Positions 26,371 to 34,537 of a stretch of DNA of 48,027 nt are shown here, in pieces (position 1 is the first letter of the stretch; each line of letters starts with the position of its first letter). A program made the translations under genes and the position numbers. The DNA comes from Candidatus Omnitrophota bacterium. Its GTDB lineage: Bacteria > Omnitrophota > Gorgyraeia > Gygaellales > Profunditerraquicolaceae. The stretch lies in contig JAGOOP010000001.1 in the NCBI GenBank assembly GCA_017992455.1, forward strand, positions 11,696-59,722, in the 5' to 3' direction. The notes below the pieces were generated by a model. That model did not search any database and was not told the DNA's origin. It saw only the letters and a program-made list of their open reading frames with translations.

Positions 26371-28362
26371 TTATGTCCCGCTGCGGCCCTCGATTTTTTC
26401 CGGCAGCGTCCGTGACGTATACGTGCACTGCGGGTATTTCGTGCACCCGTAGAACATGCCGCGCCGCGAGCGCCGCTCGATCAATTCTCCCGCGCAGCCG
26501 GGCTGCGGGCACGCAATACCGGTGGTGATCGATTTCGACGCCTTGCATTCCGGAAAACCCGAACAGCTCAGGAACTTTCCCTTTCTGCCCCATTTTACGA
26601 TCATGGGCCTGCCGCACTCCGGGCACACCTGGTCCGTCATGATGACTTCCTTGACGATATTGCCCTGGGCAAACTCAAGGCTCACCTTGAACGGCGTATA
26701 AAAATCAGTCAGGACCTTCAAACGGTCGAGCTCCCCCTCGGCGATCTCGTCCAGTTCCTCTTCCATGAACGCGGTGAACTTGACGTCGATGATATCGGGA
26801 AAATACTCCACGAGCATATCGGTGACCTTGAACCCGAGTTCGCTCGGGTTGAGATACCCTTTCATCCGGTGGATATACCCCCGGTTGATAAGCGTCGATA
26901 TGATCGGCGCATACGTCGAGGGCCGTCCGATGCCTTCTTCCTCAAGGACCTTGATGAGCGAACTGTCGGAAAACCGCGGCGGCGGCTTGGTAAAATGCTG
27001 GGAGGGAACGAGTGCAACGAGTGCAAGCGGCTGATCCTTCTCAAGCGCCGGGATGCCGTTCGATTTTTCCTCTTCCGCATCTTCCTTATAGAGAATCGAG
27101 AACCCGGCGAATATCTCTTTGCTCCCTGAAGCCGTAAAGAGGTATTGGTCAGCGGCGACTTCGACCGTCGTCACGAGCGACCTGCTCGGCGCCATCTGAC
27201 AGGCGATAAAACGGTTATAAATGAGCTCGTAGATACGGAACTGTTCGTCGGTCAGATACGATCTGAGCTTTTCGGGCGGATGATCGATGAGCGTCGGCCG
27301 TATGGCTTCATGCGCTTCCTGCGCGAATTTTTTCGTCTTGTACACGGGAGGTTTTTCAGGGACGTATTCTGCGCCGAATTTCTTCGCGATCATGGCGCGC
27401 GCCTGGGCCACGGCGTCGGCGGCGATGTTCGTCGAATCGGTGCGCATATAGGTGATGAGGCCGACCGGCGCTTCTTCCCCGATATCGATACCTTCGTATA
27501 ACTGCTGGGCGATCATCATGGTCTTGACCGCGTTATACTTCAGCTTGTTGAACGCTTCCTGCTGGAGCGTGCTCGTGATAAAGGGCGCGGAGGGATTACG
27601 CTTCTTTTCAGACTGTTTGACCTGCTGGACCGTGAAATTCCTTTGCCTGATATCGGAGGCGATCCTGTCTGCGGCATCCTGGCTGCGGATCTCCGCCCTG
27701 GCGCCGTCTATCTTATCGAGCTTCGCGATAAAACTGCCCAGACCCGCGTACGAAGGGGAATCGGCGGGACGCAATTCCGCCTCGATCTCCCAGTATTCCT
27801 GCGGGGTGAATCCCTGGATCGCGCGTTCGCGCTCCACGATCAGGCGCAGCGCCACGGATTGCACGCGGCCGGCGCTCAGGCCCCGGGCGATCTTTTTCCA
27901 CAACAGGGGGCTGAGGTAATATCCGACGATGCGGTCCAGGATCCTGCGGCTGACCTGCGCCTCGATCATATTTTCGTCGAACTGGCGCGGATGCTTGAAC
28001 GCGTTCTTCACCGCATCCTGCGTGATCTCGTGGAAATTGACCCGCATGACCTTCTTGCCCTTAAAATACCTGTCCTGGATCTGCCAGCCGATCGCTTCTC
28101 CTTCGCGGTCGGGATCGGTGGCGATATAAATGATGTCCGCGTCCTTGCCTTCTTTTTTGAGGCTCGTGATGACCTTGCTTCTTCCCCTGATGACCGTATA
28201 GGAAGGCTCGAATCCGTTATCGACGTCGACGCCGAGCTTGCTTCTGGGAAGGTCGACCAGATGTCCCATCGAGGAAAGGACCGTAAAGCCCTTGCCCATG
28301 ATCTTGCCGATGGTCTTGGCTTTTGTGGGAGATTCGACGATGATCAAATGTTTAACGTGCAT
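26371..28362 (-). CDS. topA: DNA topoisomerase I
   Basis: A 663-residue type IA topoisomerase that relaxes negative supercoils. The Toprim domain holds E10 and DPDREGEA (83-90). The active-site tyrosine is Y305 in LITYMRTDST. Two C-terminal zinc ribbons are visible, one starting CPECGRP and one CPQPGCAG, fewer than in E. coli TopA. The start at 28362 has AAGGAG at 5-nt spacing and overlaps the dprA end by 11 nt. Sequence ends in a short basic tail. Confidence 0.97.
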   Translation of the reverse strand: MHVKHLIIVESPTKAKTIGKIMGKGFTVLSSMGHLVDLPRSKLGVDVDNGFEPSYTVIRGRSKVITSLKKEGKDADIIYIATDPDREGEAIGWQIQDRYFKGKKVMRVNFHEITQDAVKNAFKHPRQFDENMIEAQVSRRILDRIVGYYLSPLLWKKIARGLSAGRVQSVALRLIVERERAIQGFTPQEYWEIEAELRPADSPSYAGLGSFIAKLDKIDGARAEIRSQDAADRIASDIRQRNFTVQQVKQSEKKRNPSAPFITSTLQQEAFNKLKYNAVKTMMIAQQLYEGIDIGEEAPVGLITYMRTDSTNIAADAVAQARAMIAKKFGAEYVPEKPPVYKTKKFAQEAHEAIRPTLIDHPPEKLRSYLTDEQFRIYELIYNRFIACQMAPSRSLVTTVEVAADQYLFTASGSKEIFAGFSILYKEDAEEEKSNGIPALEKDQPLALVALVPSQHFTKPPPRFSDSSLIKVLEEEGIGRPSTYAPIISTLINRGYIHRMKGYLNPSELGFKVTDMLVEYFPDIIDVKFTAFMEEELDEIAEGELDRLKVLTDFYTPFKVSLEFAQGNIVKEVIMTDQVCPECGRPMIVKWGRKGKFLSCSGFPECKASKSITTGIACPQPGCAGELIERRSRRGMFYGCTKYPQCTYTSRTLPEKIEGRSGT

Positions 28363-29464
28363 ACGAACTCCTTATATATGTCCCGGCTGCCACCTGGGTG
28401 ATCATATGTTTCATCTGCAGATCCACCAATACCGACGACAAAGGGATCACGCCCATGTGCGTTTGTTCCATAAGTGCTTCCATGGAAACAGGATGATGAG
28501 ATATTATATTATATAAAGCCTCTTCCAGGCAAGATAAACTTCCCGAAGGAACGCGCTGTGGTTCCTGCGTGCCGCGGCCCGATGGCCGCGACAATGATAA
28601 AAAAGGCATGTTTTCGATCATATCCTCGATACAGGAAACGGGGCAGGCGCCGTCTTTGATCAAAGCGTTCGTCCCGTATGCCTGCGGAGTATCTATCCTG
28701 CCGGGAAGCGCAAATACGTCCCTGCCCTGGTCCAGGGCGCAATGGGCGGTTATGAGGCTGCCGCTGTTGCGGCCCGCCTCTATGACAAGGACGCCGAGCG
28801 ATAATCCGCTTATGATACGGTTCCTGCGCGGGAAATTGAACCGCCGGGGACCGGTGCTCACGGGAAACTCGGAGATCACCGCTCCGGATCGAGCGATCCG
28901 CTGCGCAAGCGCTTCGTTTTCAGGGGGGTACACGTTGCCCAGGCCGCTGCCGATCACGGCAAGGGTCCTGCCTCCTGCTTTCAGGGCCCCTTCGTGGCTG
29001 CGCGTATCGATGCCGCGCGCCATACCCGAAACCACTGTGATGGCTCTTTCGGCGCAATCCCTGGCAAAACGCTCCGCCTGCTCTATCCCGTACAACGAAG
29101 GGCTCCGGCATCCGACCATGGCTATGGAAAGAGCGTCGGAAGGCGCGATGGCGCCTTTGACATACAGAACGATCGGCTTGTCAACGGTGTAGCGGAGATT
29201 GCGGGGATATGCATCGTCATGCAGGGTGATGACATCAAGCCCGTGTTTTGCGATAAGAGCCAGCTCTTGTTCGAGCCCTGATCTGCCGAGCGAAGAAAGG
29301 TCTTGCGCGATCTTTTCCCCGATACCGGGGACGCGTGCCAGTTCGCCGGCCGGAGCGCCGACAACCGCTTCCGGGCTTTTGAAAACATCAAGCAGGCGCT
29401 GTAAACGGATACTGCCGATGTCCATCGACAGGTTCAAGGCAATAAGGGCCTCTGTGCGTGTCAT
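28352..29464 (-). CDS. dprA: DNA-processing protein DprA
   Basis: A 370-residue DprA/Smf protein. It has an N-terminal helix-hairpin-helix-like region (VPGIGEKIA), the central Rossmann-like DprA domain (SGMARGIDTRSHEGAL, GSGLGNVYPPEN, GTNALIKDGA) and a C-terminal winged-helix part. It binds incoming single-stranded DNA and loads RecA during natural transformation. The ATG at 29464 has GAGGAGG at 5-nt spacing. An 80-nt gap, unusually wide for this operon, separates it from aroK and contains the promoter-like motif shared with the SpoVG gene and the transposase. Confidence 0.95.
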   Translation of the reverse strand: MTRTEALIALNLSMDIGSIRLQRLLDVFKSPEAVVGAPAGELARVPGIGEKIAQDLSSLGRSGLEQELALIAKHGLDVITLHDDAYPRNLRYTVDKPIVLYVKGAIAPSDALSIAMVGCRSPSLYGIEQAERFARDCAERAITVVSGMARGIDTRSHEGALKAGGRTLAVIGSGLGNVYPPENEALAQRIARSGAVISEFPVSTGPRRFNFPRRNRIISGLSLGVLVIEAGRNSGSLITAHCALDQGRDVFALPGRIDTPQAYGTNALIKDGACPVSCIEDMIENMPFLSLSRPSGRGTQEPQRVPSGSLSCLEEALYNIISHHPVSMEALMEQTHMGVIPLSSVLVDLQMKHMITQVAAGTYIRSSYAR

Positions 29465-29491
29465 GACCGCCTCCTCACGTTTGCGCATCCG

Positions 29492-29536
29492 CCATAATAG
29501 ACGCGCGCACCCGGGCGAATCTCACTATTTTTTTAC
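29492..29536 (-). promoter_or_regulatory. Shared promoter-like motif, copy in front of dprA
   Basis: Minus strand order: A-rich tract, AGTGAGA (29520-29526), 15 nt, GCGTCTATTATGG (29492-29504). The ATG of dprA follows 27 nt later. TATTAT inside the second block fits a -10 box. The same two blocks with 14-nt spacing occur at 30390-30423 and 35263-35296. Confidence 0.6.
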
Positions 29537-29544
29537 GGGGAAGA

Positions 29545-30057
29545 TCACTGTCCTGCAGGAAGGAGTTTGCGGATGACCGTTTCGACGATCTCCTGGACGG
29601 AAAGATCGGTCGTGTCGATGAGGATGTCGGCCCGGCGGTACGCCGCATCGCGGTCGGATAATAACGACTGGATCCGTTCAAGGGGATCCCCGCTGCGCAA
29701 AAGGGGCCGGTGCGTCGTGACGCCGATGCGCTTGAGGATCTCCTGCGGCGACGCTGTCAGACAGATGCATGTGCCTGTTTCTTTCATGCGCGCCATATTC
29801 TCGGGGTCCAGGACGATCCCTCCGCCGCACGAAACGACGGTCATGTTTTTGCCGCAGACGGCGGCCAGAGACTCTTTTTCAATGCGGCGGAAATATTCCT
29901 CGCCCCTGGACTTGAATATCTCGGCGATCGCCGCGTTCTCTTTTGCTTCGATAGACGAGTCAAGATCGACGAAATCGACGCGCAGCTTTCTGGCGAGCGC
30001 TCTGCCGACGACCGTTTTACCGGTTCCCATAAATCCGACGATATAGATGTTCTTCAT
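29545..30057 (-). CDS. aroK: Shikimate kinase
   Basis: A 170-residue cytosolic kinase that phosphorylates shikimate for chorismate synthesis. The Walker A site GFMGTGKT is at 8-15; DLDSSIE and the shikimate-binding SCGGG follow, with the lid region containing RPLL. The ATG at 30057 is chosen by homology, since no clear ribosome site precedes it and the upstream extension runs through a hairpin. It is separated from aroC by the SpoVG-family gene. Confidence 0.95.
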   Translation of the reverse strand: MKNIYIVGFMGTGKTVVGRALARKLRVDFVDLDSSIEAKENAAIAEIFKSRGEEYFRRIEKESLAAVCGKNMTVVSCGGGIVLDPENMARMKETGTCICLTASPQEILKRIGVTTHRPLLRSGDPLERIQSLLSDRDAAYRRADILIDTTDLSVQEIVETVIRKLLPAGQ

Positions 30058-30068
30058 GGCGCGAGGCA

Positions 30069-30099
30069 GGGATGAGGGGCGCACAACGCCCCTCATTCC
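30069..30099 (-). other. Strong hairpin between the SpoVG gene and aroK
   Basis: A 10-bp perfect GC-rich stem (72-81 with 87-96 of the 30,000 series, 5-nt loop) that extends by three more pairs including one G-U. It begins about 14 nt after the SpoVG stop. No T-run follows in the minus direction, so it could be an mRNA-stabilising or partial termination structure that lowers aroK expression relative to SpoVG. Confidence 0.55.
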
Positions 30100-30112
30100 C
30101 GTCATCAGTCAG

Positions 30113-30370
30113 TTACTGCTGATACGCGCTTAACACCAGTTCGTTGAGGAACTCGCGCGCCTCTTTGGTCGCAGGGAAGAACGTATCGTACCACTTGCCG
30201 TCCTTCGCTTTTTCCTGAGGCATGGCAAGGAACATACCCTTTTTCCCTTCGACAACGCGCAGGCCCTTTACTACAAACTGGCCGATGGATATATCGGCAA
30301 AGGCCCTGGTCTTCGAGTCGCCTTCAAAACGGTGCAAACGCACTACCTGTACGTCCGGTGATCCGGTCAT
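30113..30370 (-). CDS. spoVG: SpoVG-family protein
   Basis: An 85-residue SpoVG-family protein. The signature is seen in RAFADISIGQFVVKGLRVVE followed by KGMFLAMP. In Firmicutes and spirochaetes SpoVG binds nucleic acid and modulates gene expression; sporulation is not implied here. The ATG at 30370 has a strong GGGGG/GAGG site. It lies between aroC and aroK but has its own upstream gap carrying the motif shared with dprA and the transposase, and a hairpin downstream, so it may be expressed separately from the aro genes. Confidence 0.88.
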   Translation of the reverse strand: MTGSPDVQVVRLHRFEGDSKTRAFADISIGQFVVKGLRVVEGKKGMFLAMPQEKAKDGKWYDTFFPATKEAREFLNELVLSAYQQ

Positions 30371-30389
30371 CCGACCTCACCCCCTTTCA

Positions 30390-30429
30390 CTACAATAGAC
30401 GCCGGGGATGGAGGTCTCTCACTTATTTT
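30390..30429 (-). promoter_or_regulatory. Shared promoter-like motif, copy in front of the SpoVG gene
   Basis: Minus strand: A-rich tract, AGTGAGA (30417-30423), 14 nt, GCGTCTATTGTAG (30390-30402), then GAAAGGGGGTG and the SpoVG ATG 19 nt after the motif. The stretch from the second block through GAAAGGGGGTG is nearly identical to the copy at the transposase. Confidence 0.6.
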
Positions 30430-31467
30430 TTACCGGATACGTTTGCAATAATGCGCATACCCGGCTTTTATGTCGGCGATGCTGTCCGAACCGAACTTTT
30501 CAAGGAAAGCGCCCGCAAGCACCTGCGCGACCGCCGCCTCCGCGACCACGCCCGCGGACTCGACCGCGCATATATCGGAGCGCTCGACCGACGCCTTCGC
30601 GGCTTTGCGCGAGACGATGTTAATGGAATCAAGCGGGTTCAACAATGTCGCTATCGGCTTCATGCAGCCGCGCACGACGATATCCTGGCCGTTGGAAATG
30701 CCGCCCTCAATGCCGCCGGCATTATTGGTGGAACGCACGATCCCTTTACCTTTTTCATACTGGATCGGATCGTGAACCTCCGAGCCGAACCGCTGGCCGT
30801 AACCGAACCCAAGGCCTATCTCAACGCCCTTGACCCCGGGGATCGCCATGACCGCCGCGGCGATCATCGCATCGAGCCTTCTGTCAGGCTGCACATAACT
30901 GCCGAGCCCCGCAGGAACGCCTGCCGCCCGGACCTCGAACTCACCGCCGACCGTATCCCTCCTGCGGACAGCCTCCCGGATCTTTTCGATCTTCGCTTCG
31001 CGGCCCGCTTCGCCGCCGATAAGAACGACGATACTGGTTATCCGGATGCGGAATTCCTGCAGCAGTATCTTTGCGAGCGCGCCGCAGGCGACCGTTGCAG
31101 CGGTGCTGCGGGCGGACGCGCGCTCCAATACATCGCGGATATCGCTGAAGCCGTATTTGAGCGCTCCTGCCAGGTCCGCATGGCCGGGCCGGGGAGCAAC
31201 AACTTTGTGCAGCCGTTCAATGCTCGCGTCCTTGTTCTCGATGAGCAATGCGACCGGGCTGCCGAGCGTTTTGCCTGCTCTGAGCCCGGACAGGACCTGC
31301 GCCCGATCATTCTCTATCTGCATGCGCTTGCCGCGGCCGAAGCCCATCTGCCTGCGTTTGAGCTCGGCATTGATGAAATCGACTTTCACCGTTAATCCGG
31401 CAGGCATTCCTTCGATGATCGCAACAAGGCCCTTGCCGTGTGATTCGCCCGCTGTCAATATCCTCAT
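30430..31467 (-). CDS. aroC: Chorismate synthase
   Basis: A 345-residue FMN-dependent chorismate synthase, the last step of the shikimate pathway. Family motifs are GESHGKGL at the N-terminus, the FGRGKRMQIE segment, RPGHADL, the RASARSTAA active-site segment and NAGGIEGGISNGQD. The ATG at 31467 has GAGGAGG at 5-nt spacing. It follows the nuclease gene after 13 nt. The C-terminal segment is slightly shorter than in E. coli, within the family's range. Confidence 0.97.
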   Translation of the reverse strand: MRILTAGESHGKGLVAIIEGMPAGLTVKVDFINAELKRRQMGFGRGKRMQIENDRAQVLSGLRAGKTLGSPVALLIENKDASIERLHKVVAPRPGHADLAGALKYGFSDIRDVLERASARSTAATVACGALAKILLQEFRIRITSIVVLIGGEAGREAKIEKIREAVRRRDTVGGEFEVRAAGVPAGLGSYVQPDRRLDAMIAAAVMAIPGVKGVEIGLGFGYGQRFGSEVHDPIQYEKGKGIVRSTNNAGGIEGGISNGQDIVVRGCMKPIATLLNPLDSINIVSRKAAKASVERSDICAVESAGVVAEAAVAQVLAGAFLEKFGSDSIADIKAGYAHYCKRIR

Positions 31468-31480
31468 CGCAGCCTCCTCA

Positions 31481-32050
31481 TTATTCGTTCCATAATCCGA
31501 GCTTATTGTCCCGCGCCCGGCGGTATAACCGCAGGAACTCATCCGCGTGCCTGACGTTCGGCGGATAGGTCATGACCGACGCATATCCCTGCCTGATGAT
31601 CTCGGCGTTCACGAACGTCCCGTCAGGCAGATATACATACGCGAGGAGCCTTTTATATTTATCGCGTTTCTCAACGTCGAACTCAAGCCGCACGGTCCTG
31701 CCTTCGACAAGCCCTTTGGTGAACAGATACGAGCGCCTGCCAAGGGCCTTAATAGTCTCTGCATCCCGGGCTGACCTGCGGGCATCCCGGTACAGTTTCT
31801 CGGATTCGTGCATTTCGGGCGTGTCGATACCGATAAGCCGCACGCGTTCGCCTGACGCAAGCTTGAGCGTATCTCCATCAACGACCCGCTCGACAAAGAC
31901 CGCATCGAAAGCGTCCGGATCGTCCGCGCGGCCCGGCCGCTGCGGAGTTTTCGCATACTGCGATACGATAAACGCCGCTGCGGCAATGGCCGCGGCAGCG
32001 AGCATGACAACAGGTTTTTTCTTGAACGATCTGCGGCCGCGCCTAGACAT
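31481..32050 (-). CDS. Membrane-anchored or secreted thermonuclease-like protein
   Basis: A 189-residue staphylococcal-nuclease-fold protein. A basic N-terminus and hydrophobic stretch (about 13-28) make a signal peptide or anchor, so the domain is extracytoplasmic. Core motifs are RVVDGDTLKL, RLIGIDTPE and the KRLLAYVYLPDG segment. It likely cuts DNA or RNA outside the cytosol. The gene overlaps the DUF3786 gene by 8 nt; AGGGAAAT precedes its ATG. Its place in an operon with dprA is suggestive of DNA uptake, but this is inference. Confidence 0.87.
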   Translation of the reverse strand: MSRRGRRSFKKKPVVMLAAAAIAAAAFIVSQYAKTPQRPGRADDPDAFDAVFVERVVDGDTLKLASGERVRLIGIDTPEMHESEKLYRDARRSARDAETIKALGRRSYLFTKGLVEGRTVRLEFDVEKRDKYKRLLAYVYLPDGTFVNAEIIRQGYASVMTYPPNVRHADEFLRLYRRARDNKLGLWNE

Positions 32051-32597
32051 ATTTCCCTATGAACCCCGCAAGCACAGCGATATCTTCGGTGCAGAATATT
32101 TTTTGTATGCTCTTGTCGAACAAAAGGTTTGCTTCAGGGCCGAACTCATCGTCCCCTGCCCATATCTCGATCAACAAGGGGACTCCCTCGAACGCCTGGA
32201 TCGTGATCGCCGCATCGGCCTGCTGCACCCTGGACCCGGAGACTTTTTCCAGAGCAACGTAGATGCTCTTCGGGTCATTGCCGTGTTTTTTGATGATCGG
32301 CTCGATGGCGCGCTTGCGGAACGCCGGGTAATATGCCTCGCCGCTCGGCAGCTCCTTGAACGATACCCATTCTCCTTCCGGCCGGGGCAGGCCGTTCAGC
32401 TTCGCCTTCAGGTAATGCAAAAGAAGGATGGAAATAAAATCCTTCGCAGGGACGTTGCATGATAACGACAGGACCTTTTTGCCAAAGACATCCACGCTAT
32501 ACTCGTCGCTGAAAAACTTCAGCGCAACCGGCCCGGCGCCGCCGTACAGCGCCGCGATATCGTCCCATGCTTTCTTCATTGCCGCATCGTACGACAT
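32043..32597 (-). CDS. DUF3786 protein
   Basis: A 184-residue soluble protein of the DUF3786 family. Recognisable segments are LLLHYLKAKLNG, WVSFKELPSGEAYY and the C-terminal GDDEFGPEANLLFD with TEDIAVLAG. The family is common in anaerobes and its function is unknown. It is the first gene of the long minus-strand array and is driven by a good promoter at 32607-32635. The ATG at 32597 would leave a leader of only two or three nucleotides; an in-frame ATG six codons later is the alternative. Confidence 0.8.
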   Translation of the reverse strand: MSYDAAMKKAWDDIAALYGGAGPVALKFFSDEYSVDVFGKKVLSLSCNVPAKDFISILLLHYLKAKLNGLPRPEGEWVSFKELPSGEAYYPAFRKRAIEPIIKKHGNDPKSIYVALEKVSGSRVQQADAAITIQAFEGVPLLIEIWAGDDEFGPEANLLFDKSIQKIFCTEDIAVLAGFIGKYV

Positions 32598-32606
32598 AAT
32601 AGAGCC

Positions 32607-32635
32607 ATTATATTCTTTATTTATGGATAAATCAA
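32607..32635 (-). promoter_or_regulatory. Promoter of the DUF3786-to-copA array
   Basis: Minus strand: TTGATT (32630-32635), 17-bp spacer, perfect TATAAT (32607-32612). Predicted initiation at about 32599 is practically at the start codon (32597). It interleaves with the plus-strand helicase promoter. Confidence 0.7.
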
Positions 32636-32652
32636 CGGTTTTAGCTTATAAT
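32624..32652 (+). promoter_or_regulatory. Promoter of the Ski2-like helicase
   Basis: Plus strand: TGGATA (32624-32629), 17-bp spacer, perfect TATAAT (32647-32652). The ATG begins 7 nt after the -10 box, so initiation should be at or next to the start codon (leaderless mRNA). GAGG lies only one base before the ATG, too close for normal ribosome binding. Confidence 0.6.
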
Positions 32653-32659
32653 GTGAGGT

Positions 32660-34537
32660 ATGAAATACGACCGTTTCCAGCAGGAATCCATCGATTTCAT
32701 CAATCAGGGATTTTCGGTGATCGTTTCCGCGCCGACGGGCGCGGGTAAGACCGCGATCGCCGAGCATGTCATCCGCCAGGGGCTCGAGAACAGGACGGGC
32801 GTCATCTACACCGCGCCCATCAAGGCGCTTTCCAATCAGAAATTCCGGGACTTCCAGGGCCAGTTCTCCGATTCCATCGGGATCCTGACCGGCGACGTAT
32901 CATTGAATCCCGAGGCGCCGGTCCTCATCATGACCACGGAGATATTCCGCAACAAGATCCTCGATGAACCCCAGTCCCTGGATAAATACAACTGGATCAT
33001 ATATGACGAGATCCATTACATCGACAATCCCGAACGGGGCACGGTATGGGAGGAATCGCTCATGTTCCTCCCCCGGCACATGCGGCTCGTCGGATTGTCC
33101 GCGACCATTCCCAATATCAAAGAATTCGCCGCCTGGATCGAATCGATCCATAAACACCCGGTCAAGACCGTCATTGAGGAGAAACGCCCGGTGCCGCTTC
33201 ATTTCTATTTCCAGTGCGGCAGCCAGATCGCCGATAACCTGAACCAGCTGAAGCGCATGGCATACGTCAAGGCGAACCGGCCCGCGCGTATCATCGACTA
33301 TGTGCGGGAACGCGAAGGATTCCCCTGCATATATTTCGTGTTCGGCAGGAAGCGCGCCGAGGACCTGGCGTGCGAGATCAGCGGGTATAATTTCCTTAAG
33401 GATTCCGAGCGGGAGCAGATCGTCGATATGTTCGAGGATCTGTGCCGCAAGTTCAACCTGACCAACGAGAAAAGCGCAAGCCTCATGCATCCTTTGATCC
33501 GGCAGGGCATCGCGTACCATCACGCGGGGATGCTGCCGACCCTTAAGGAAGCGATCGAGCGGCTGTTCACGAGCCGCCTGCTCAAGGTCATTTTCACCAC
33601 GGAAACGTTCGCCCTCGGCATCAACATGCCCTCGAGGTCGGTCATCTTCGACGACCTGCGCAAATTCTACGGCAAGTATATCCGGAACCTTAAAACGCGG
33701 GATTTCTACCAGATGGCCGGACGCGCCGGGCGCAGGGGCATCGATACGGAAGGATTCGTCTACTGCCGGATCAATCCGGCGCGCATCAGGATCGACGAGG
33801 TCAAAAAGATCATCTACAATCCGTCCGAACGGGTCAACAGCCAGTTCAACATCTCCTATGCGACGCTCCTCAATCTGTATGAAAAATACAAAGACGGCAT
33901 CGCCCGGATATATCCCCTCACGCTCCATTATTTCCAGACAAAGAAGAACCAGCAGGCCGAGGCGCTGCGCCTCATCGATGCAAAGCTGCGGCTCCTGAAG
34001 AACACGGGATTTATAGAGGAGGGCGGCCTTTCCGCCAAAGGCCTGTTCGCCAAGACCGTATACGGCTATGAGCTGATATTGTCGGAATTATACGCGCGCA
34101 ATATCTTCGAGCAGCTCGACGAGTTTGAACTCGGGATCCTGGCGGTATCGACCATATTCGAGCCGCGCAAGAACCAGGAAATAATGGCGCTCTCGAAAAG
34201 CGCGCGCAGGATCCGCGTTGCGTGCGAAGAAATATACAAAGGCATTAAGGACAGGGAGATGAAATACCGCATTTACCCCATAAGCAAAATGCCTTATTTC
34301 CACCTCTCTCAGGCAATGGAATACTGGCTGCGCGGGACGGATTTCGGAAAATTAGTGCGTTACACCGATACGGACGAGGGAGAGATCGTGCGGTATTTCA
34401 GGATGGCGATCCAGGTCCTGCGCGAGATCCACGACAACCCGGTCTCCTCGTCGCTTTTAAAGGAACGCATCAAGGAAACGATCCGCGTCATCAACCGCGA
34501 CGTCGTCGACGCGGAAAAGCAGCTGCGCGAAGGCTAA
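32660..34537 (+). CDS. Ski2-like DEAD/H helicase
   Basis: A 625-residue superfamily 2 helicase of the Ski2/Mtr4-like group. Walker A is APTGAGKT (24-31), motif II DEIH (116-119), motif III SATIP and motif VI QMAGRAGRRG. The C-terminal third has the helical character of the DSHCT region. It probably unwinds structured RNA, possibly with a nuclease; bacterial members are little studied. It is the only plus-strand gene in the window, with its own promoter and a leaderless-type start. Its last codons (GGC TAA) fall in the 29-bp inverted repeat of the transposase element. Confidence 0.9.
   Translation: MKYDRFQQESIDFINQGFSVIVSAPTGAGKTAIAEHVIRQGLENRTGVIYTAPIKALSNQKFRDFQGQFSDSIGILTGDVSLNPEAPVLIMTTEIFRNKILDEPQSLDKYNWIIYDEIHYIDNPERGTVWEESLMFLPRHMRLVGLSATIPNIKEFAAWIESIHKHPVKTVIEEKRPVPLHFYFQCGSQIADNLNQLKRMAYVKANRPARIIDYVREREGFPCIYFVFGRKRAEDLACEISGYNFLKDSEREQIVDMFEDLCRKFNLTNEKSASLMHPLIRQGIAYHHAGMLPTLKEAIERLFTSRLLKVIFTTETFALGINMPSRSVIFDDLRKFYGKYIRNLKTRDFYQMAGRAGRRGIDTEGFVYCRINPARIRIDEVKKIIYNPSERVNSQFNISYATLLNLYEKYKDGIARIYPLTLHYFQTKKNQQAEALRLIDAKLRLLKNTGFIEEGGLSAKGLFAKTVYGYELILSELYARNIFEQLDEFELGILAVSTIFEPRKNQEIMALSKSARRIRVACEEIYKGIKDREMKYRIYPISKMPYFHLSQAMEYWLRGTDFGKLVRYTDTDEGEIVRYFRMAIQVLREIHDNPVSSSLLKERIKETIRVINRDVVDAEKQLREG

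Follow-up and report, generated by a model that had tools for sequence, protein, structure and literature searches.

Divergent, interleaved promoters with predicted leaderless starts between a Ski2/Mtr4-like helicase gene and a DUF3786 gene in Omnitrophota

Introduction

Leaderless genes preceded at close range by a -10 box, as well as overlapping divergent promoters, are already known in bacteria. According to the accessible text of the two reports, the leaderless genes of Deinococcus and other Deinococcus-Thermus members (PMC12340547) and the TA-led genes of Zheng et al. 2011 (PMC3160421) are alike in having the -10 box 6–7 bp before the start codon and no SD sequence, and leaderless mRNAs were inferred or shown in both. 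Divergent promoters with overlapping polymerase sites have been reported at lysG-lysE of Mycobacterium tuberculosis (PMC5648196) and at the EcoRV restriction-modification genes (PMC5333194), and lysE has in addition a leaderless start (PMC5648196). In the bidirectional promoters of Escherichia coli and Salmonella the two directions share a near-symmetric -10, and starts are 7–25 bp apart (PMC12825309, PMC10268837), as far as the accessible parts of these papers tell.

The locus analyzed here separates a helicase gene from a DUF3786 gene in a window of 48,027 nucleotides from the genome of a Candidatus Omnitrophota bacterium. It combines features of these systems, and differs from each of them. 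About one third of the Deinococcus genes are described as leaderless, whereas in Omnitrophota such genes are a small minority, with one gene recurring phylum-wide and as part of a divergent pair. Unlike the Omnitrophota pair, lysG-lysE and EcoRV encode a regulator protein within the pair, and a double leaderless layout is not described in the accessible parts of those reports. Bidirectional promoters of the E. coli type are also different, since the Omnitrophota promoters do not share a -10: they have separate -10 boxes and abutting -35 hexamers, and predicted starts lie approximately 48–60 bp apart in 25 compact pairs. Novel aspects are the lineage, the combination of abutting -35s with leaderless starts on both sides, and the depth of conservation at one gene. 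No description of such a layout was found in the accessible open-licence literature dealing with leaderless genes, with promoters or transcription starts in Omnitrophota, or with conserved leaderless orthologues.

The DUF3786/helicase intergenic region

The window derives from a genome assembled in 58 contigs, and the nearest named loci reside in Omnitrophota MAGs (up to 73% protein identity). The rightward gene (32660..34537, plus strand; 625 aa) is predicted to be leaderless. Its product features DEAD, helicase C and C-terminal DSHCT domains, all above the Pfam cut-offs, and is by sequence a Ski2/Mtr4-like helicase, with a putative role in RNA unwinding. The best relatives of solved structure, by sequence, are yeast DOB1/Mtr4 and Ski2 (E ~1e-107); these eukaryotic exosome helicases rank well ahead of archaeal Hel308. 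The leftward gene (32043..32597, minus strand; 184 aa) encodes a DUF3786 protein, has a predicted leader of 0–3 nt, and heads a run of thermonuclease-like, aroC, SpoVG-like, shikimate kinase-like, dprA and topA genes (26371..32050, minus strand). Close spacing suggests that the run from DUF3786 to topA is co-transcribed. A search of the window against Rfam gave no match.

The two ATGs, at 32597 on the minus and at 32660 on the plus strand, delimit a gap of 62 bp. The helicase -10 box, TATAAT (32647..32652, plus), ends 7 nt 5' of the ATG, and follows at 17 bp a weak -35-like hexamer, TGGATA (32624..32629, plus; 4/6 consensus bases). The DUF3786 -10 box, also TATAAT (32607..32612, minus), ends 9 nt 5' of its ATG, and is separated by a 17-bp spacer from the -35 hexamer TTGATT (32630..32635, minus), which adjoins the plus -35. 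The abutting hexamers form a composite element (32624..32635), the core of which, GATAAATCAA, corresponds to residues 32626-32635. The pair spans 46 bp (32607-32652), in the order minus -10, plus -35, minus -35, plus -10; the two promoters thus face opposite ways and have overlapping spans, as in overlapping divergent sigma70 promoters. Each matches 10 of the 12 sigma70-type consensus bases, the top score in 10 kb (with one tie).

Two interleaved promoters with perfect TATAAT boxes, ending 7 and about 9 nt before the helicase and DUF3786 ATGs, had been noted in a preliminary description of this DNA. The distances are confirmed by reading the sequence, and coordinates, spacing and orthologues all agree with the interleaved arrangement. 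It had also been proposed that the genes cannot be fully transcribed at once because the boxes overlap. The hexamers do not overlap at all: the -35s touch at 32629/32630, and it is the spacers that interleave. Mutual exclusion itself stands as a fair inference from this geometry.

Neither gene features a properly spaced ribosome site, as previously noted. A GAGG located 1 nt 5' of the helicase ATG is too near to function as SD, and nothing SD-like is found upstream of the DUF3786 ATG in the window. An in-frame TGA (32654..32656, plus), read directly between the -10 box and the helicase ATG, 4–6 nt 5' of the latter, rules out an upstream start.

Conservation of the -10 boxes and lack of SD sequences

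A scan of 10 kb identified 10 promoter-like sites, against 6.6 +/- 2.7 expected. Since this is near the chance number, consensus matches alone are unconvincing, and the orthologues decide. Of 80 helicase loci collected, one (L026) was dropped because it begins inside the helicase gene, and the upstream regions of the remaining 79 feature TATAAT at a near-fixed distance. Box positions were scored in 77 loci, as the alignment shows no start codon at the corresponding position of L040, and the upstream sequence of L076 is shorter than 60 nt; 78 were counted where 40 nt sufficed. A -10 box matching at least 5 of 6 residues ends 5–9 nt before the start in 66/77 orthologues, and is perfect in 61/77, orthologues being non-independent samples. 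After removal of similar loci (at least 80% alike over the last 50 nt) figures were 50/60 and 45/60, respectively. In five other upstream bins of 7 positions, perfect TATAAT boxes were found in 0–1 of the 77 loci. DUF3786 was identified by tblastn in 48 of the 79 loci, some of which end too early to tell; a -10 box (at least 5/6), mostly TAAAAT or TAGAAT, is located at 5–9 nt in 40 of the 48.

SD sequences of at least 5 nt were found in none of the 77 helicase loci, and in one of the 48 DUF3786 loci. The anti-SD in the 16S rRNA of the window's genome is intact. A group I intron (RF00028, 54.4 bits; L115:3030-3784, in G000 contig C5) interrupts the sole 16S rRNA gene found in this genome near its 3' end, upstream of the anti-SD. 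Two hallmarks of TA-led genes, a -10 ending about 5–9 nt before the start and no SD, are found.

The distance between -10 box and helicase ATG peaks at 6 nt (33 loci) and 7 nt (24 loci), in agreement with the 6–7 bp given for the leaderless Deinococcus genes (PMC12340547). At 6 nt, the expected first RNA base is the A of the ATG. The base preceding the ATG is a pyrimidine in all 33 loci of the former group and in 21 of the 24 of the latter, totalling 54/57, compared with 59% of the genes called in the window's genome (binomial probability ~9e-10, to be read with the non-independence of orthologues in mind). The bias is weak at DUF3786 (11/16 at 6 nt, 4/11 at 7 nt). Possible first bases in the window are G32658 for the helicase (2-nt leader) and, on the minus side, A32600 for DUF3786 (3-nt leader), so that a leader of 0–3 nt is a fair claim. 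Helicase proteins are alike from the first codons across orthologues, and the next in-frame start is located at least 19 codons downstream, or beyond the 39 codons checked. The distance of the -10 in orthologues and the absence of SD sequences back the earlier suggestion that both genes are leaderless; leaderless or nearly leaderless (0–3 nt) starts are well-supported predictions for the two.

Distribution in Omnitrophota

The helicase -10 box was found in 40 of 55 genomes outside the window's family, in 18 families; counting the window's family, it occurs at least once in 19 of 24 families. The box is missing in families f50 (0/6), f52 (0/2), f55, f56 and f58 (0/1 each). Other bins of the same width gave 1–7 matches across the 67 genomes surveyed, some of which are also loci of the 77-helicase set, so that the two counts are not independent. 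The survey covered 69 of the 97 matching genomes (the window's own excluded), corresponding to 29 loci returned by the search and 40 picked by hand, mostly in list order, before their upstream sequence was viewed; two (G089, G106) had no start, which left 67. No helicase match was detected in the sole genome of the same genus.

In a tree of the 79 helicases, compact pairs are found on both sides of the midpoint root, and the state of the -10 box needs 10 changes. The -35 hexamers abut exactly in 21 of the 25 compact pairs, and the minus -35 is TTGATT in 23 of the 25. The exact composite core pattern was found in 19 of 285 genomes, 17 of which belong to the window's family; a shifted-spacing control was found in 4 of 285. 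Judging from these counts, the exact core is largely confined to the window's family, whereas the leaderless-type -10 reaches wider.

Rarity of leaderless-type starts in the genome

A survey of the -10-to-ATG distances at first genes of this genome, suggested in the preliminary description, places leaderless-type starts in a small minority. Perfect TATAAT boxes at 5–9 nt mark 6 of the 160 first genes called in 504 kb, against 0–3 in six other bins of 5, and three of the six are inside the window. Boxes matching at least 5/6 residues precede at the same distance 12 of the 160, against 6–11 in the other bins. The idea that leaderless starts are a general habit of this genome was dropped, as only 6/160 first genes fit it. 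Among first genes of relatives, helicase and DUF3786 left out, 2/100 have such a perfect box. Genes were called by a simple codon-usage caller, which will have set some starts wrongly and missed the L106 pair described below.

The statement that most other genes here have strong AGGAGG sites does not hold: SD sequences of 5 nt or more precede 12 of the 39 genes called in the window, or 15 of the 39 when all plausible starts are considered, the gene caller being a rough one. An MFS gene (window 16464, minus) had been put forward as a third leaderless case. The TATAAT 6 nt before its ATG is there, but is not conserved: none of 19 other orthologues has a perfect box and 3/19 have a 5/6 match 5–9 nt before a candidate start, and this third case was rejected. 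The MFS N terminus is not conserved among orthologues.

Of 21 divergent pairs called, DUF3786/helicase is the sole one with a -10 (at least 5/6) at 5–9 nt on both sides. A second divergent pair of this genome is found at L106:10595 (minus) and 10677 (plus), with ATGs 81 bp apart preceded by TATAAT at 9 and 5 nt; one product looks GIY-YIG-like by eye, and the N terminus of the other is signal-like.

Altered loci

At nine loci (L010, L022, L028, L037, L038, L039, L044, L058, L059) the core is replaced by the block TATTATATTGCGGTT or near variants, and TATAAT is still found 6–7 nt before the helicase ATG.

A hairpin-bearing repeat separates the helicase -10 box from the ATG in five loci (L006, L007, L023, L046, L047), and in these lineages the leaderless arrangement is broken. 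The repeat is dispersed (2 to 18 matches per genome), and had no match in a search of Rfam. The five loci are not all grouped in the tree; the repeat may have entered the same spot several times independently, or a single old insertion may have been lost in sister lineages.

Five other loci (L008, L018, L019, L025, L032) are without DUF3786; the minus promoter sequence is present, and faces a thermonuclease-like gene.

Discussion

The region is best explained, and in our view probably, as a compact divergent promoter of the housekeeping sigma type, which would yield leaderless mRNAs both ways from directions that compete. Each direction would use a -35 and a -10 of its own, set with the -35s back to back and the spacers interleaved. 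Transcription would begin at, or about 3 nt from, each ATG, and the leaderless mRNAs would be translated without SD. The footprint of RNA polymerase is large enough to cover the opposing promoter. Polymerase bound one way would hence cover the other promoter, and the directions, on geometric grounds, would exclude each other; the helicase gene and the run from DUF3786 to topA would in this way compete for polymerase.

The plus -35 is a weak element, for which no fit is found in L015, L016 and L029, and the core GATAAATCAA may be seen mainly as the site for some regulator of both genes, the plus -35 being incidental. No other block is as well conserved as this core, which is close to symmetric (GATNNATC) and is still found in some loci at which one promoter alone could make use of it. 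Moreover, TTGATTTATC is retained before several DUF3786 genes located apart from the helicase, so that GATA may be conserved for reasons other than a plus -35. Against this stand the facts that TTGATT is explained as the minus -35, 16–17 bp from its -10, and that 504 kb of the window's genome contain just two copies of the core, so that no wide regulon is seen; a regulator site as the main role is accordingly rated a rather improbable reading. A much more improbable one, to which we give very little weight, assumes longer leaders made from promoters further upstream and translated without SD, the near TATAAT being incidental A+T-rich sequence. SD-less initiation on leaders may exist, since over half of the called genes lack an SD of 5 nt; but TATAAT recurs in perfect form and at one distance in 61/77 orthologues, and in many families, which cannot be incidental.

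Compaction could by itself produce the layout: two promoters packed into about 60 bp would leave leaders no space, and leaderless translation as such would not have been selected for. Genomes are small, and gaps measure 49–66 bp in 24 of the 48 loci with DUF3786. However, where the genes lie apart the -10 is still kept by 17/23 helicase and 17/24 DUF3786 genes, the helicase -10 is kept in 26 of 31 loci without DUF3786, and the arrangement is kept in other families too; 34 of the 67 helicases with a -10 are without the core. Compaction alone is thus unlikely, and the layout is probably not its mere outcome. As far as orthologous sequences indicate, the leaderless arrangement usually outlasts the separation of the genes or the loss of DUF3786. 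The helicase start remains leaderless in loci with an altered -35 region or partner gene, and for this reason seems to be maintained in its own right.

What such a start may serve is a matter for speculation. Work in other bacteria, in its accessible part, deals with selective translation under stress (PMC3898074), and selective translation of the helicase mRNA under stress would be, by analogy, a guess. Leaderless initiation of the helicase might, as a tentative and rather doubtful extension of the divergent-promoter reading, be a regulatory trait held since early Omnitrophota, the mRNA being translated by a route disfavoured by SD-led mRNAs (e.g. by intact 70S under stress), while the abutting -35s would tie its output inversely to the topoisomerase I run, and act as a ratio switch without a regulator protein.

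The mechanism is of known kinds; what is new is how deeply it is conserved at one gene. Gene finders that rely on SD sequences may place starts of this type wrongly. Natural variants exist in which the partner is lost, the -35 is replaced, or a hairpin repeat is inserted between -10 and ATG, so that why a gene stays leaderless becomes directly testable. An uncultured phylum gains in this way a clear, testable leaderless case, at one gene and across deep divergence, while most of its other genes are not of this type.
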